From a virus: DNA of 39,291 nt. The DNA lies in the IMG/VR virus record IMGVR_UViG_3300031999_000087, positions 1 through 39,291 of that record; one strand, 5' to 3'. Of the stretch, positions 1 to 39,291 are shown piece by piece; the first letter of the stretch is position 1, and the number at the start of each line of letters is the position of its first letter. A program made the position numbers and the translations under genes. Below the pieces are notes generated by a model, which saw only the letters and a list, made by a program, of their open reading frames with translations, had not been told where the DNA came from and did no database searches.

Positions 1-143
1 TGCTCTGCGCACGGTGTCGGGGCTGGGCAGCTTCCTAGCGGGGCAGGTAGTGGCCGACCTTAAGAACGACCGCTACCTTGTAGACGTCCCCGACTGGCAC
101 ACCTTTGCCGTGATGGGGCCGGGCAGCAAGAAGGGGCTTGACT
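1..143. repeat. Terminal overlap, left copy
   Basis: Bases 1-143 match 39149-39291 with a single difference (T at 17, C at 39165). This marks the contig as circular or terminally redundant with a 39,148-bp unit. The overlap lies inside the aGPT-Pplase-like gene; the difference changes Ser to Pro in that protein. It may be an assembly overlap rather than the physical genome end. Confidence 0.95.
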
Positions 144-334
144 TTATCTTCGGGCCTGGGACTACGGAGAAAACATTCACCGCACGTCTTGACTTGCTAC
201 AGAAAGTCACAAGTGGTAAAATACCTGTACTACATGCGCAGGACTTGCAGAACACACTTTGCGAGTTCAGCAAGTATGTACGCTACATGGATAACCTTCC
301 AGGACGCCGGAGACCGTATCATGCTAACAATTGA
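2..334 (+). CDS. aGPT-Pplase-like protein, C-terminal part (gene cut by window edge)
   Basis: This is the 3' part of the gene that starts at 38703; joining 39148 to 1 keeps the frame and gives a 259-residue protein. Visible here are the helix-hairpin-helix-like stretch GLGSFLAGQVVADL and the family-typical segment DWHTFAVMGPGSKKGLDFIFG. Members of this DNA-glycosylase-related superfamily act late in thymine hypermodification, displacing pyrophosphate from pyrophosphorylated 5-hydroxymethyluracil in DNA. The apparent GTG start at 14 is an artefact of the window edge. The stop overlaps the next gene's start by 14 bases, indicating translational coupling. Confidence 0.85.
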   Translation, partial: ALRTVSGLGSFLAGQVVADLKNDRYLVDVPDWHTFAVMGPGSKKGLDFIFGPGTTEKTFTARLDLLQKVTSGKIPVLHAQDLQNTLCEFSKYVRYMDNLPGRRRPYHANN

Positions 335-1286
335 CACGCGCAACGTAAACGACGCATTCCCACGGCTGTGCGACATACTGATGCATAACAGCCTTAGCCG
401 CGAGGGCGACTCCCGGAACGGTAAGGTGCGGGCCATTGACGGCCCTATGATGATCAAGTTTCGCAGTCCCTGCGAGCGGGTGCTGTTCGCCGAAGACCGT
501 AACGCTAACCCCTTCTTCCACCTGTTCGAAGCTATCTGGATGTTAGCGGGTAGTAACGAGGTTGGGTTCGTATCTCAGTTCAACAAGCAAATGGTGAGCT
601 ACAGTGATGACGGAGAGACCTTCAATGCCGCCTATGGTCATAGATGGCGTAGACACTTCGGACACGATCAAATTGCTCGAAGCATTGGGATGCTCAGAGC
701 TAACCCAAATGATCGCCGAGTTGTCATTACTCAATGGGATCCAAGAGCAGATCTGGGTGCTGAGAGTTTGGACATCCCCTGCAACCAACAAATTATGCCA
801 CGAATGCGTGAGGGTAAGCTAGACTTCCTCACCACCAACCGTAGCAACGATCTGGTGTGGGGGTTGTGCGGGGCCAATGCCGTGCATCTAACTGTACTGA
901 TGGAGGTCATGGCCTTTGCCATCGGCGTGCCGGTTGGCAACTGGGTTCACGTGTCCAACAACCTGCACCTGTACGAGCATCACTGGGACTTAGCCAAGCA
1001 CATCAAACCCCACCAGCACTGGCGGCAGTACCAAGGAACTCAGCCCCTACTGGTAGCAGGCGAGACCTACGAGCTGTTTATTGAGGACTGCGAGGCATTT
1101 ATTACCGGGCAGGACGACGACTTTAAGACAGCCTTTTTCGACGGCACCGTAGCCCCCATGATCCAAGGGTGGCACAAGTGGCGGCGCGATGGCGACCTAC
1201 AGGGGGCGCTATATGACTGCTCCTGCATCGAAGCAAACGACTGGCGCATTGCCAGCACCCAATGGCTTAAGAGGAAGGTAAAATGA
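321..1286 (+). CDS. ThyA-family pyrimidine hydroxymethylase / thymidylate synthase
   Basis: A 321-residue ThyA-superfamily protein that should transfer a one-carbon unit from methylenetetrahydrofolate to C5 of dUMP. The nucleophile is Cys154 in DIPCNQQ; the phosphate/base-binding segment NRSNDLVWGLCGANAVHL (residues 173-190) carries the conserved Arg-Ser and Asp177. The Asn that reads uracil O4/N3 in E. coli ThyA (GLPFN) is shifted by one to GLCGAN, as I recall from phage hydroxymethylase-type members. The ATG at 321 is preceded by GGAGA and overlaps the aGPT-Pplase-like stop. Context favours dUMP hydroxymethylase (making 5-hydroxymethyl-dUMP) over plain thymidylate synthase, but sequence alone does not settle it. 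Confidence 0.85.
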   Translation: MLTIDTRNVNDAFPRLCDILMHNSLSREGDSRNGKVRAIDGPMMIKFRSPCERVLFAEDRNANPFFHLFEAIWMLAGSNEVGFVSQFNKQMVSYSDDGETFNAAYGHRWRRHFGHDQIARSIGMLRANPNDRRVVITQWDPRADLGAESLDIPCNQQIMPRMREGKLDFLTTNRSNDLVWGLCGANAVHLTVLMEVMAFAIGVPVGNWVHVSNNLHLYEHHWDLAKHIKPHQHWRQYQGTQPLLVAGETYELFIEDCEAFITGQDDDFKTAFFDGTVAPMIQGWHKWRRDGDLQGALYDCSCIEANDWRIASTQWLKRKVK

Positions 1287-1705
1287 ACTACGAACTATTC
1301 CACAGCACGCTGAACCGCACCCGCCTAGCCACGACCCATGGCGAGGTAGAGGCTTGTGTCTCGGTACTGTACTCTTTAACCGACCACGGTGGCTCAGCAG
1401 ACCGCATTACTGCCGAGGAGGCGATCATGACCGCCCGCCGCCGCGTGGGGGCACTGCCCCCGGTAGCCCCCCGCGCCAACGCCAGCCAAGTGGGGGGCGG
1501 CCACTACAAGGCGCACATCCAGCACTGGGACTTCGTCATAGCCAACGACCTAGGCTACTTCGAAGGGCAGATCACCAAGTACATCACCCGCTGGCGCAAG
1601 AAGAACGGGGTGCAGGATTTACTCAAGGCGCGCCACTTCCTTGATAAGCTGATTGAAGTAGCAGAAGCTGAGGGCGAGCCTACCAGCGCCTATGTGAATC
1701 AGTAA
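1283..1705 (+). CDS. DUF3310 protein, possible deoxynucleotide kinase (T7 gp1.7-like)
   Basis: A 140-residue protein whose C-terminal half (about residues 73-132) has the DUF3310 pattern: Gly-His-Tyr-Lys, then FEGQITKYITRWRKKNG, then a DLLKARHFLDKLIE helix. T7 gp1.7, a dTMP/dGMP kinase without a Walker motif, has the same kind of domain. The ATGA overlap with the hydroxymethylase gene suggests that they act on the same nucleotide, so I infer a possible role phosphorylating hydroxymethyl-dUMP. The N-terminal half is not recognised. Family assignment is firm; kinase activity is inferred. Confidence 0.75.
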   Translation: MNYELFHSTLNRTRLATTHGEVEACVSVLYSLTDHGGSADRITAEEAIMTARRRVGALPPVAPRANASQVGGGHYKAHIQHWDFVIANDLGYFEGQITKYITRWRKKNGVQDLLKARHFLDKLIEVAEAEGEPTSAYVNQ

Positions 1706-23707: not shown

Positions 23708-24220
23708 ATGACCAAGCCAGCCCGCAAGCCCCGCACCACTGCCGACCTAGCTGCCGCCGCTACTGCTGCCGGCGTTGAACTGGTGCCGAACATTAACGCG
23801 CTGCCTGTAATGGAGGTTGAGGCTGTAATGGAGGTTGAGGCTGTAATGGAGGTTGAGGCTGTAATGGAGGTTGAGGCTGTAATGGAGGTTGAGGCGCTAC
23901 CAGTGATGGAGGTTGAGTATGTAGCGCCTGCCACCTACCTAGAAGCGGTAGCACGGCACGAAAGGAGCATTGAACTGGGTGCCGATAGCCGGATGTTGAC
24001 CGGGTTTACCAAGCCCTGTGTTGCGCGTGACGGTACGATCACCCATGCTGTATGGGTTGCACTGCAAGCGCCGGAATTAAGCTACACTAGCGCCATAGCC
24101 GCTGCTCTACATGCTGAATGCGCCGCACACCGTGCGCGGGGCAAAGCACCGAAGGGCACTGGCCTGAGCGCTGCCGGTTGGCTGCGGACGTTTGGTGCTA
24201 CATTTGCGCAAGGGGTTTAA
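23708..24220 (+). CDS. Repeat-containing small protein (VMEVEA repeats)
   Basis: A 170-residue protein with its own promoter and terminator. The N-terminus is basic and Ala-rich (MTKPARKPRTTADLAAAATA), residues 34-71 are six tandem VMEVEA-type repeats, and the C-terminal 95 residues form a possible folded domain (HAVWVALQAPELSYTSAIAA, then GLSAAGWLRTFG). The unit lies alone on the plus strand inside the control region. I infer a possible DNA-binding or regulatory role from position and the basic ends; no family recognised. AAGGA precedes the ATG. Confidence 0.7.
   Translation: MTKPARKPRTTADLAAAATAAGVELVPNINALPVMEVEAVMEVEAVMEVEAVMEVEAVMEVEALPVMEVEYVAPATYLEAVARHERSIELGADSRMLTGFTKPCVARDGTITHAVWVALQAPELSYTSAIAAALHAECAAHRARGKAPKGTGLSAAGWLRTFGATFAQGV
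23807..23920 (+). repeat. 18-bp coding tandem repeat
   Basis: Five contiguous 18-bp units (GTAATGGAGGTTGAGGCT and near-identical) at 23807-23896, then a six-base insertion and a sixth unit at 23903-23920. Four units are identical at the DNA level, suggesting recent expansion. Each unit holds ATGGAGG. Confidence 0.9.
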
Positions 24221-37196: not shown

Positions 37197-37736
37197 ATGC
37201 ACGACAACACTGCTGAAAACATCGAAGAAGCCGTAGAAGCTCCTACCAAGCGCGTCCGTAAGCCTAAGCTCGATGCTGAAGGTCAGCCGATCGTAAAGGC
37301 GGTTAAAGAGTCTAAGCTGTGGCCCCAGTATGCTGAAGACGGCAGCCCCCTGCTTGACGAAGCCGGCGAGCCAGTGCTCGGCACTGCCCGCATGGCCAAG
37401 CCGAAAGTAGCCAAGCTGTACCCGCAGTATGCCGAAGACGGCAGCCCCCTGCTGGATGAAGCTGGCGAGCCAGTGCTGGGCACGACCCGCATGGCCAAGC
37501 CGAAAGTGCAGCGCTTGGACGAAGACGGCAACCCGATTGCCCGTGCTCGCGTAGTGCCTTCCGACGTAGAAGCTGTGCTGGTGGTCAACGCCGCTAAGAT
37601 CGCCGGCTACAAGGGTGCTCGCGCCGACAACGCCAAAATGCTCGAAGACGGCATGACGTTGGGTGCGTTCCTGGAGGCCGGTGGCGACAAGGGCTTCCTG
37701 CGCTTCTACATGCGTGACGGCGCTGTAAGCATCTAA
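37197..37736 (+). CDS. Basic protein with two 33-residue repeats
   Basis: A 179-residue protein. The N-terminal 40 residues are charged (EEAVEAPTKRVRKPKLDAEG); then two near-identical 33-residue repeats (PQYAEDGSPLLDEAGEPVLG followed by MAKPKV), and a C-terminal folded part (KIAGYKGARADNAKMLEDGM, then RFYMRDGAVSI). The repeat resembles the DEDGNPI-type linkers of DNA-compacting proteins, so nucleoid or DNA binding is possible. It leads the modification cluster behind its own promoter and ends at a strong hairpin. AGAGGT precedes the ATG. Confidence 0.7.
   Translation: MHDNTAENIEEAVEAPTKRVRKPKLDAEGQPIVKAVKESKLWPQYAEDGSPLLDEAGEPVLGTARMAKPKVAKLYPQYAEDGSPLLDEAGEPVLGTTRMAKPKVQRLDEDGNPIARARVVPSDVEAVLVVNAAKIAGYKGARADNAKMLEDGMTLGAFLEAGGDKGFLRFYMRDGAVSI
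37317..37514 (+). repeat. 99-bp coding tandem repeat, two copies
   Basis: Units 37317-37415 and 37416-37514 encode 33-residue repeats that differ at few residues, while many DNA differences are synonymous. This points to an old duplication held by selection on the protein. Confidence 0.9.
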
Positions 37737-37799: not shown

Positions 37800-38549
37800 A
37801 TGCAGATAATCATTATTACTCGGGGCCGCGAGGGCAAGCAGCACACCCTAGCGAGCATCCCTGGATTTTTGAAGGATAGAACTTGGCTGTGCTGTCCCCC
37901 TGACGAGGAGCACCCGCATCAGTGCATGTACGAGCCGCGCCCCATGAACTACAGTGAAAAGTTCCAGTGGCTGATTGATGGGGCAGATGGTCAGCTTTCC
38001 GGCAAGGTGCTGATCATGGACGACGACCTACGCTTCTCAGCGCGGGTTGGCGACGGCCCGCTGACTAAGGCGTACTCGGGCGAGGTGTACGAGGGGCTGA
38101 TGAAGCTGGAAGAGATGCTGGACACCTACCCGCTGGTCGGCTTGCACCCTCGCGCTATGGGGAACAACGCCCCGGTGGGCATTAAGGAATGTACTCGCAT
38201 CAACGCTATGCAGGGGGTTAATCTAGACACTCTGCCCCGCATGAAGGTGGACTACTGGCCCATCTTAGCAGACATGGTGCTGAACCTCGCGCTGCTTACC
38301 AGCGGCATCAAGACTGCCATCTGGTGCCAGTTATTTTGGGATCAGGTAGGAACTTCTAACGCCCCCGGCGGCTGCTCACTGCACCGTACTTGGGAGCAGC
38401 AGAAGACCGCAGTGCTGGGACTCCAAGCCATGTTCCCCAAGGTGGTGGCGGTTAAGGAGAAGGTAGTTAAGGACGGCTGGTGGGGGCCAGATAAGCCCCG
38501 CTTCGATTTTGTAATTCAGTGGAGGAAGGCATATGAACTCGGTAGATAA
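37800..38549 (+). CDS. TET-associated-type glycosyltransferase (GT-A fold)
   Basis: A 249-residue protein beginning MQIIIITRGREGKQHTLASI, the opening strand and ITRGR loop of GT-A nucleotide-sugar-binding folds. The metal-binding acidic motif is VLIMDDDLRFSAR (Asp74-76). Downstream PLVGLHPRAMGNN and the conserved NAPGGCSLHRT (188-197) match the TET/JBP-associated glycosyltransferase (TAGT) family, which in phages glycosylates hydroxymethylated pyrimidines in DNA. No TET oxygenase is present here; the hydroxymethyl group would instead come from the ThyA-family enzyme. The small membrane protein gene overlaps its 3' end. Confidence 0.75.
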   Translation: MQIIIITRGREGKQHTLASIPGFLKDRTWLCCPPDEEHPHQCMYEPRPMNYSEKFQWLIDGADGQLSGKVLIMDDDLRFSARVGDGPLTKAYSGEVYEGLMKLEEMLDTYPLVGLHPRAMGNNAPVGIKECTRINAMQGVNLDTLPRMKVDYWPILADMVLNLALLTSGIKTAIWCQLFWDQVGTSNAPGGCSLHRTWEQQKTAVLGLQAMFPKVVAVKEKVVKDGWWGPDKPRFDFVIQWRKAYELGR

Positions 38550-38706
38550 CATTATTTGTGCGATTGTACTGGTCCTTGTTGGATCTCTTGTTGGGTCTAT
38601 GGGGTACGTCCTGCACAGAATGGTCCTGAAAGACGTGCAGGCATGTACCATTAAGATGCTAGCTCTAGAACGCCCAGCTGAAGAGATTAAGGAGCTGTGC
38701 AAATGA
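38533..38706 (+). CDS. Small single-span membrane protein (57 aa)
   Basis: A 57-codon frame starting MNSVDNIICAIVLVLVGSLV, with one membrane span (residues 7-27) followed by a basic and then acidic helix (ALERPAEEIKELCK). GGAGGAAGG lies just before the ATG. It overlaps the glycosyltransferase gene by 17 bases and its TGA overlaps the aGPT-Pplase-like ATG (ATGA). Its place between two modification genes is notable, but function is unknown. Confidence 0.65.
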   Translation: MNSVDNIICAIVLVLVGSLVGSMGYVLHRMVLKDVQACTIKMLALERPAEEIKELCK

Positions 38707-39291
38707 ACTCGGCAATGCTTGACCTCTATATCTACTACGTCAACGAGCGCGACGCAGTACAGGCCCGGCGAGAGGCTGGGATCCCAGCCCCTTGGACTGG
38801 CGACCAAATACTCCGCAATCACCACTTCTGCCACAACCGCCGAGAGGACGATCGTGGCACCAAGGAGATCAGGGCAGAGATCCTAAAGTTTGGCGATGAC
38901 GTAACTCGGCTCCCAGCGCTCTACACTATGGCCCGACTGTTCAACCATGCCCCCACCGTAGAGGACTGGCGCATCGGTGGGGTTAAGCTGGTTCGGGACA
39001 TTCGTGATGGGGGTGGTAAGATCTTCAACACTGCCTACGTCGTCAGCACGGCTGGGGAGTCTATTGATAAGGTGACGTACGTCAGCAGGCTTGTTCACGC
39101 TGTGGCCAAGCTAGACGTCCCCCGCACCAGTTGCCGCGACGCCTTCGATGCTCTGCGCACGGTGCCGGGGCTGGGCAGCTTCCTAGCGGGGCAGGTAGTG
39201 GCCGACCTTAAGAACGACCGCTACCTTGTAGACGTCCCCGACTGGCACACCTTTGCCGTGATGGGGCCGGGCAGCAAGAAGGGGCTTGACT
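38703..39291 (+). CDS. aGPT-Pplase-like protein, N-terminal part (gene cut by window edge)
   Basis: The gene starts at 38703 inside the previous stop and continues through the junction to 334 (259 residues in all). The N-terminal signature PAPWTGDQILRNHHFCHNRR followed by EDDRGTKEI (residues 28-57) is the hallmark of the alpha-glutamyl/putrescinyl-thymine pyrophosphorylase superfamily. In known phages of the ViI, M6 and SP10 type, these enzymes replace a pyrophosphate on hydroxymethyluracil in DNA with an amine. The required 5-hmU-DNA kinase was not found in this window. The last 143 bases repeat the window start. Confidence 0.85.
   Translation, partial: MNSAMLDLYIYYVNERDAVQARREAGIPAPWTGDQILRNHHFCHNRREDDRGTKEIRAEILKFGDDVTRLPALYTMARLFNHAPTVEDWRIGGVKLVRDIRDGGGKIFNTAYVVSTAGESIDKVTYVSRLVHAVAKLDVPRTSCRDAFDALRTVPGLGSFLAGQVVADLKNDRYLVDVPDWHTFAVMGPGSKKGLD
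39149..39291. repeat. Terminal overlap, right copy
   Basis: Matches 1-143 with one mismatch (C at 39165 versus T at 17), which reads Pro instead of Ser in the aGPT-Pplase-like protein. Supports circular closure at 39,148 bp, with a real variant or sequencing difference at one base. Confidence 0.95.

Follow-up and report, generated by a model that had tools for sequence, protein, structure and literature searches.

The operon and its surroundings

The window, as we call the whole 39,291-nucleotide stretch analysed here (IMG/VR virus record IMGVR_UViG_3300031999_000087), begins and ends with the same sequence. Comparison of the contig ends revealed that bases 1–143 repeat bases 39149–39291 with one mismatch; the contig is therefore circularly permuted and complete, with a genome size of about 39,148 bases once the terminal overlap is removed. 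The record also contains genes for a portal protein, terminase, amidase, primase, and DNA polymerase A. Five overlapping frames on the plus strand run across the junction (Table 1), encoding in order a TAGT-family glycosyltransferase (GT), a 57-residue open reading frame, a protein termed HEL, a ThyA-family enzyme, and a DUF3310 protein, and each gene overlaps the next by a few bases. The overlapping genes and the terminal repeat bear out the preliminary description, which had placed the GT beside an "aGPT-Pplase-like" protein (HEL) in one operon continuing through the junction into a ThyA-family gene. The motifs that it listed (DDD, GGCS-x-x-R-T, PWT-x-D-x-IL, and RREDD) are all present.

Table 1. 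Features of the cassette and of the contig ends in the window.
Feature	Position	Strand	Basis
Small protein with repeats, immediately upstream of the cassette	37197..37736	+	Two 33-aa repeats (YPQYAEDGSPLLDEAGEPVLGT...)
GT-A glycosyltransferase of the TAGT family, 249 aa; "X" enzyme in the cassette	37800..38549	+	PHROG_842; PF20691 in relatives; AlphaFold2 model
Small ORF of 57 aa with a single hydrophobic stretch, overlapping GT and HEL on either side; may not be a gene	38533..38706	+	Sequence
HEL, 5' part (ATG at 38703), containing HhH-like GLGSFLAGQVVADL and Asp180	38703..39291	+	PF18723; model of L010 orthologue
HEL, 3' part, ending in the invariant LCEFSKY motif	144..334	+	Reading joined over the 143-base overlap; alignment
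ThyA-family pyrimidine hydroxymethylase, 321 aa, predicted dUMP hydroxymethylase	321..1286	+	PF00303, 1.8e-22
DUF3310 protein, overlapping the ThyA stop	1283..1705	+	PF11753, 1.2e-6; PHROG_5839, 5.7e-26
Terminal overlap, copy 1	1..143	.	Matches 39149-39291 except base 17
Terminal overlap, copy 2	39149..39291	.	Sequence comparison

A PHROG search with the 57-residue frame and a family search with the repeat-containing protein upstream of the cassette returned no match; a low-complexity gene lies at the position of the latter in the related loci L010, L089, and L090 as well. The cassette of locus L115 is likewise closed by a DUF3310-like gene. The mismatch in the terminal overlap (T at base 17, C at base 39165) exchanges Pro for Ser in the helix-hairpin-helix (HhH)-like motif of HEL (VPGLG versus VSGLG) and is probably a contig-end error or a strain variant.

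The TAGT-family glycosyltransferase

The profile searches suggested in the preliminary description assigned both central proteins to families. The GT matched PHROG_842, "beta-glucosyl-HMC-alpha-glucosyltransferase", with 6e-25 and covered the whole Pfam profile TAGT (PF20691) with 18.3 bits, under the cut-off of 27.5 bits; PF20691 was matched by 67 of the 70 members of the GT family, at best with 3.7e-27. The DDD motif (residues 74–76) and the GG...R motif are invariant in the family alignment. An AlphaFold2 model (pLDDT 94.4) predicted a GT-A fold, for which GalNAc-T2 was the best structural match with a Z-score of 14.2. The GT had no match among PDB sequences, and no relatives of TAGT were found among 84,980 bacterial and archaeal genomes. 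A close-relative scan seeded by the window GT alone returned nothing, as did a Megablast search of half of the window against INPHARED.

Because the GT-A structural matches are mostly protein and polysaccharide GTs, the enzyme might work outside the pathway, e.g., on host surface glycans or on protein, leaving HEL and the ThyA-family enzyme to operate without it. We consider this quite improbable, since more than 100 loci have TAGT exactly where others have the 5-hmdU DNA kinase, with the kinase replaced in place (see below), and both PHROG and Pfam group TAGT with DNA-modifying phage GTs.

Two tandem TAGT paralogues lie next to HEL at L001:7989-9600 and L053:2319-3841 and might assemble a disaccharide on a single base.

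The ThyA-family enzyme and the predicted base

The ThyA-family protein shares 42% identity with PaMx11 gp51, and its nearest solved structure is that of the CMP 5-hydroxymethylase MilA. It has the catalytic Cys, an Asp at position Cys-3, and an Asn at the base selector (LDIPCN...RSNDLVWGLCGAN). Virtually every TAGT or kinase locus has the base-selector Asn as well, and the window shares the Asp at Cys-3 with most loci. In the dCMP hydroxymethylase of T4, both positions are Asp (Asp145/Asp179), of which Asp145, at Cys-3, stands in for the Leu of thymidylate synthase (PMC6400193). The residues of the window enzyme fit a dUMP hydroxymethylase and thus a 5-hydroxymethyluracil (5-hmU) base.

The alternative base would be 5-hydroxymethylcytosine (5-hmC), with the ThyA-family protein acting as a dCMP hydroxymethylase as in T-even phages with TAGT. 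TAGT and PHROG_842 are indeed known from glucosyl-hmC phages, and MilA as the nearest solved structure points the same way. However, the Asn selector, where dCMP hydroxymethylase has Asp (PMC6400193), leads us to reject a 5-hmC product as extremely improbable, and the close relative PaMx11 gp51 comes from a thymidine-hypermodifying phage.

Conserved residues and predicted fold of HEL

HEL comprises 259 residues and matched Pfam PF18723 (HMUDK_hel, Pfam's "5-hmdU DNA kinase, helical domain") with 1.5e-34 and PHROG_2396 with 1.1e-36. A tblastn search with HEL retrieved phiW-14 gp72, PaMx11 gp50, and proteins of M6/YuA-like and ViI-like phages. These phages are known thymidine hypermodifiers or relatives of such. 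The window protein retains all the family motifs, namely the conserved R, RxxD, HhH-like, GPG, and LCExxKY motifs. The residues R16, R47, D50, N81, Y112, F160, D168, D180, GPG 188–190, C236, E237, and K240 are identical in all partner classes described below, and the near-invariant Asn preceding R47 is replaced by His in the window.

The AlphaFold2 model of the L010 orthologue (pLDDT 95.7) is all-helical. Its best structural match among the Foldseek candidates was 8z2m, the 5-PmdU glycinyltransferase gp46 of PaMx11 (Z 9.2, 204 aligned residues, r.m.s.d. of 4.3 Å), followed with lower Z-scores by HhH-GPD DNA glycosylases of the AGOG, OGG, EndoIII, and AlkA types. Foldseek itself ranked MutY first with an E-value of 0.16. 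The fold of HEL, predicted with high confidence, would thus be closest to PaMx11 gp46 and the HhH-GPD DNA glycosylases, for which a Z-score near 9 is not conclusive, being modest for helical proteins; the unrelated-looking DUF2419 was also among the matches (Z 8.4). The stretch GLGSFLAGQVVADL resembles a helix-hairpin-helix (pattern GLGSF...D180) and places Asp180 near the position of the catalytic Asp. HhH-GPD proteins bind DNA and flip bases, and the bifunctional glycosylases carry a Lys where HEL has an invariant Phe, as the comparison with EndoIII indicates. Searches of HEL against PDB sequences, with the single sequence or a profile, gave chance matches only. Profile-profile comparison of HEL with the gp46-type transferases was roughly collinear but not significant, so that a common ancestry of the two would rest on the fold.

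HEL goes by the name aGPT-Pplase clade 1 in the literature (e.g., PMC9599517), and its role has so far been based on that name and on the company it keeps. The preliminary description had taken it for an end enzyme beside the GT, a role that does not agree with its assignment to clade 1/HMUDK_hel, its occurrence with either a kinase or a GT, and its glycosylase-like predicted fold.

HEL and its mutually exclusive partners

We assembled 241 loci, including the window, from viral-contig scans seeded by the GT, HEL, and the kinase and from INPHARED records. HEL is present in 225 of them, i.e., the window, 112 further loci with TAGT, 95 with the 5-hmdU DNA kinase, and 17 with neither; TAGT occurs in 125 loci and the kinase in 99, and not one of the 241 has both, these counts being contigs with some near-duplicates among them. 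When the loci from the first two scans were clustered at 85% HEL identity, 72 clusters carried TAGT, 20 the kinase, and 16 neither, and one was mixed. The scan seeded by the kinase is not biased towards the lineage of the window; HEL occurred in 72 of its 76 loci and TAGT in none. With X denoting the partner enzyme, almost all loci are arranged as X-HEL-ThyA, and in many an HD-domain gene comes next. Fusions of HEL with a kinase or GT were not found among the loci scanned.

Most of the 17 other HEL loci have a GT-B-like or related unfamiliar gene upstream of HEL or nearby. One such family is GT4/GT-B-like (L089, L119, L126, L131, and L107), and the gene of L159 looks GT-B-like; a second family, found in L161, L151, L093, L125, L132, and L136, has no Pfam match. 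Proteins of about 320–380 residues with neither a Pfam nor a PHROG match fill the slot upstream of HEL at L161:104-1057, L151:383-1345, L125:6856-7995, and L093:6878-7996, making this family a candidate DNA-base transferase of a new, perhaps GT-B-like, kind. Some GT-type loci also encode, two genes before HEL, a radical-SAM-like protein (CNLYCDFCG/CNLRCEGCG; L149:6131-7105 and L125:5566-6564), which might modify the base further.

We searched for the kinase with a profile built from 20 5-hmdU kinases, 18 of which match PF18748 ("5-hmdU DNA kinase"). The profile recognised all ten kinase-type records, among them phiW-14 and a ViI-like phage, which had not contributed to it. It found no match in the complete window record or in any of 41 whole records of relatives that encode TAGT or a GT-B-like enzyme; some of these records may be fragments. 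With no window ORF of 50 or more residues containing [AG]x4GK[ST] either, the earlier remark that no P-loop kinase was visible stands. A profile for amino acid:DNA transferases of the PaMx11 gp46 type, which also misses the ViI-like phage and could let very divergent members escape, matched none of the 42 TAGT/GT-type records (window included) versus four of ten kinase-type records. The TET/JBP profile PF12851, searched without a positive control, had no match in 52 records.

These searches bear on a route in which the aGPT-Pplase-like protein makes or uses a pyrophosphorylated 5-hmU to which the GT then adds a sugar, the phosphate coming from a divergent or host kinase. Such a route would agree with the family name and with the constancy of HEL in phosphorylation-based systems. 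Neither a kinase nor a gp46-type transferase was detected, however, and the strict alternation of kinase and GT argues against a shared phosphorylated intermediate, making the route very improbable in our view.

Exchange of partners on the HEL tree and in place

In a maximum-likelihood tree of 138 HEL proteins, from a quick search with SH-aLRT support only, the TAGT/kinase label changes at least 16 times. Mixed sister pairs such as PaMx11 (kinase) and L074 (TAGT) are strongly supported. In the clade of the window, TAGT is present in the window, L009, L010, and L090, and a GT-B-like gene takes its place in L089.

The loci L115 and L053 capture such an exchange in place. Their counterparts share 42% (upstream gene), 91% (HEL), and 81% (ThyA) identity, whereas the slot between the upstream gene and HEL holds one kinase in L115 and two TAGTs in L053, and the DNA similarity breaks off there. 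An assembly artefact is ruled out, because each arrangement recurs in separate contigs: that of L115 in L156 (98.3% over 4.9 kb) and that of L053 in L054 and L071.

HEL repeatedly exchanges its partner, and kinase and TAGT are mutually exclusive. This appears to be new: that kinase and GT exclude each other, that one replaces the other in place, and what fold HEL has were not found described in the literature covered, which does not extend to the main papers of the field.

A proposed pathway for glycosylated 5-hydroxymethyluracil

We propose that the operon is a 5-hydroxymethyluracil glycosylation cassette with a constant HEL and an X slot setting the final base chemistry, and we regard the balance as tilting slightly in favour of this reading. 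It builds on the observed gene content, partner exclusivity, repeated partner exchange, and conserved residues and on the predicted folds. Judging from its conserved residues, the ThyA-family enzyme would produce 5-hydroxymethyl-dUMP, which host kinases would convert to the triphosphate and the phage polymerase would insert in place of thymidine. HEL, a presumably repurposed HhH-GPD glycosylase-like protein according to its predicted fold and its swapping between partners, would recognise 5-hmU in DNA and probably flip it out and present it. With a nucleotide-sugar as donor, the TAGT GT would then glycosylate the hydroxymethyl group. In other phages, the same HEL is paired either with GT-B-like enzymes or with the P-loop 5-hmdU DNA kinase, the entry to an amino-acid route (e.g., PaMx11 gp46). 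Because one HEL is partnered by a kinase, TAGT, or GT-B-like enzymes, the X slot would decide the final base chemistry.

Since HhH-GPD proteins flip bases and HEL is unchanged beside kinase or GT, the simplest account is that HEL finds and presents 5-hmU for any transferase. HEL might accordingly be a general adaptor for recognising and flipping 5-hmU in DNA, derived from a DNA glycosylase and working with interchangeable P-loop kinases, GT-A enzymes, at least one GT-B-like family, and the family of about 320–380 residues; we find this plausible, if somewhat short of an even chance. Were it true, glycosylated 5-hydroxymethyluracils in phage genomes would form an entire class of bases not yet described. 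The same HEL with the same invariants beside a kinase or a sugar transferase separates the handling of 5-hmU in DNA from the choice of the added group. Counting against the adaptor are the missing fusions of HEL with either partner and the TAGT phages without a detectable HEL: MW202897 (L002), DLP_6 (L003), and the contigs of L072 and L078. MW202897 retains the ThyA-family hydroxymethylase and HD genes. Preparations of 5-HMUDK phosphorylate 5-hmU DNA as the single added enzyme (PMC6449724; PMC6457204), so that HEL would not be strictly needed for the kinase step if that 5-HMUDK is the P-loop protein.

The many polar invariants kept in HEL suggest that it may itself catalyse something. It could be a transferase like PaMx11 gp46, performing a second chemical step on glycosylated or phosphorylated 5-hmU and yielding a doubly modified base. 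The glycinyltransferase 8z2m as the top structural match and the naming of HEL together with the aGPT-Pplases fit this idea, which we nevertheless judge unlikely, though deserving of serious attention: the same invariants are found beside phosphate and sugar partners, both of which a fixed chemistry would have to tolerate, and PaMx11 has a separate gp46 for amino-acid transfer in addition to HEL.

Comparison with known systems

Like the window, the 5-hmdU cassettes of PaMx11/M6, ViI, and phiW-14 combine HEL with a ThyA-family hydroxymethylase, and PaMx11 has the same order with X directly upstream of HEL. Their X is the P-loop 5-hmdU DNA kinase (PF18748), whereas that of the window is TAGT, with no gp46-type transferase. 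Under the glycosylation reading, the cassette belongs with the 5-hmU hypermodification systems as a variant whose partner slot is modular, and the original interpretation is partly supported. A sugar on 5-hmU without a kinase remains the best reading of the new route or base it had suggested, but HEL is not an end enzyme of the pyrophosphorylase type.

The pairing of GT and aGPT-Pplase is not unique to the window. It is common in viral contigs, and the cultured Brevibacterium phage LuckyBarnes encodes ThyA-TAGT-TAGT-HEL in one operon (gp38–gp41), differing from the window in its two TAGT genes, its gene order, and its very diverged sequence; this phage permits a direct test. HTVC023P-type pelagiphages also have the same combination, described as TS, aG/PT-PPlase1, 5'-deoxynucleotidase, and beta-glucosyl-HMC-alpha-glucosyltransferase, which its authors suggest broadens the thymidine-hypermodification system (PMC9599517). 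Kinase/GT exclusivity, partner exchange, and the HEL fold are not analysed in the passages covered (PMC9599517).

T6-like phages have a TAGT of the same family, PF20691, which is assigned to adding the second glucose on glucosyl-hmC (PMC13390438). TAGT alone is thus no proof of a 5-hmU acceptor; in the window, unlike in T6, the ThyA partner points to 5-hmU and HEL is present. Base J of kinetoplastids, glucosyl-5-hmU, is the type of product proposed here, but JBP1/2 hydroxylate thymine on the DNA before a glucosyltransferase acts (PMC6449724), whereas the prediction for the window is 5-hmU synthesis at the nucleotide level. As of 2019, no phage genome had been reported to contain glucosylated 5-hmdU (PMC6449724), and SP-15 contains a different base, glucosylated dihydroxypentyluracil (PMC5977210).

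Apart from the cassette, positions 23787-23930 of the window hold an 18-bp tandem repeat with about five copies of CTGTAATGGAGGTTGAGG.
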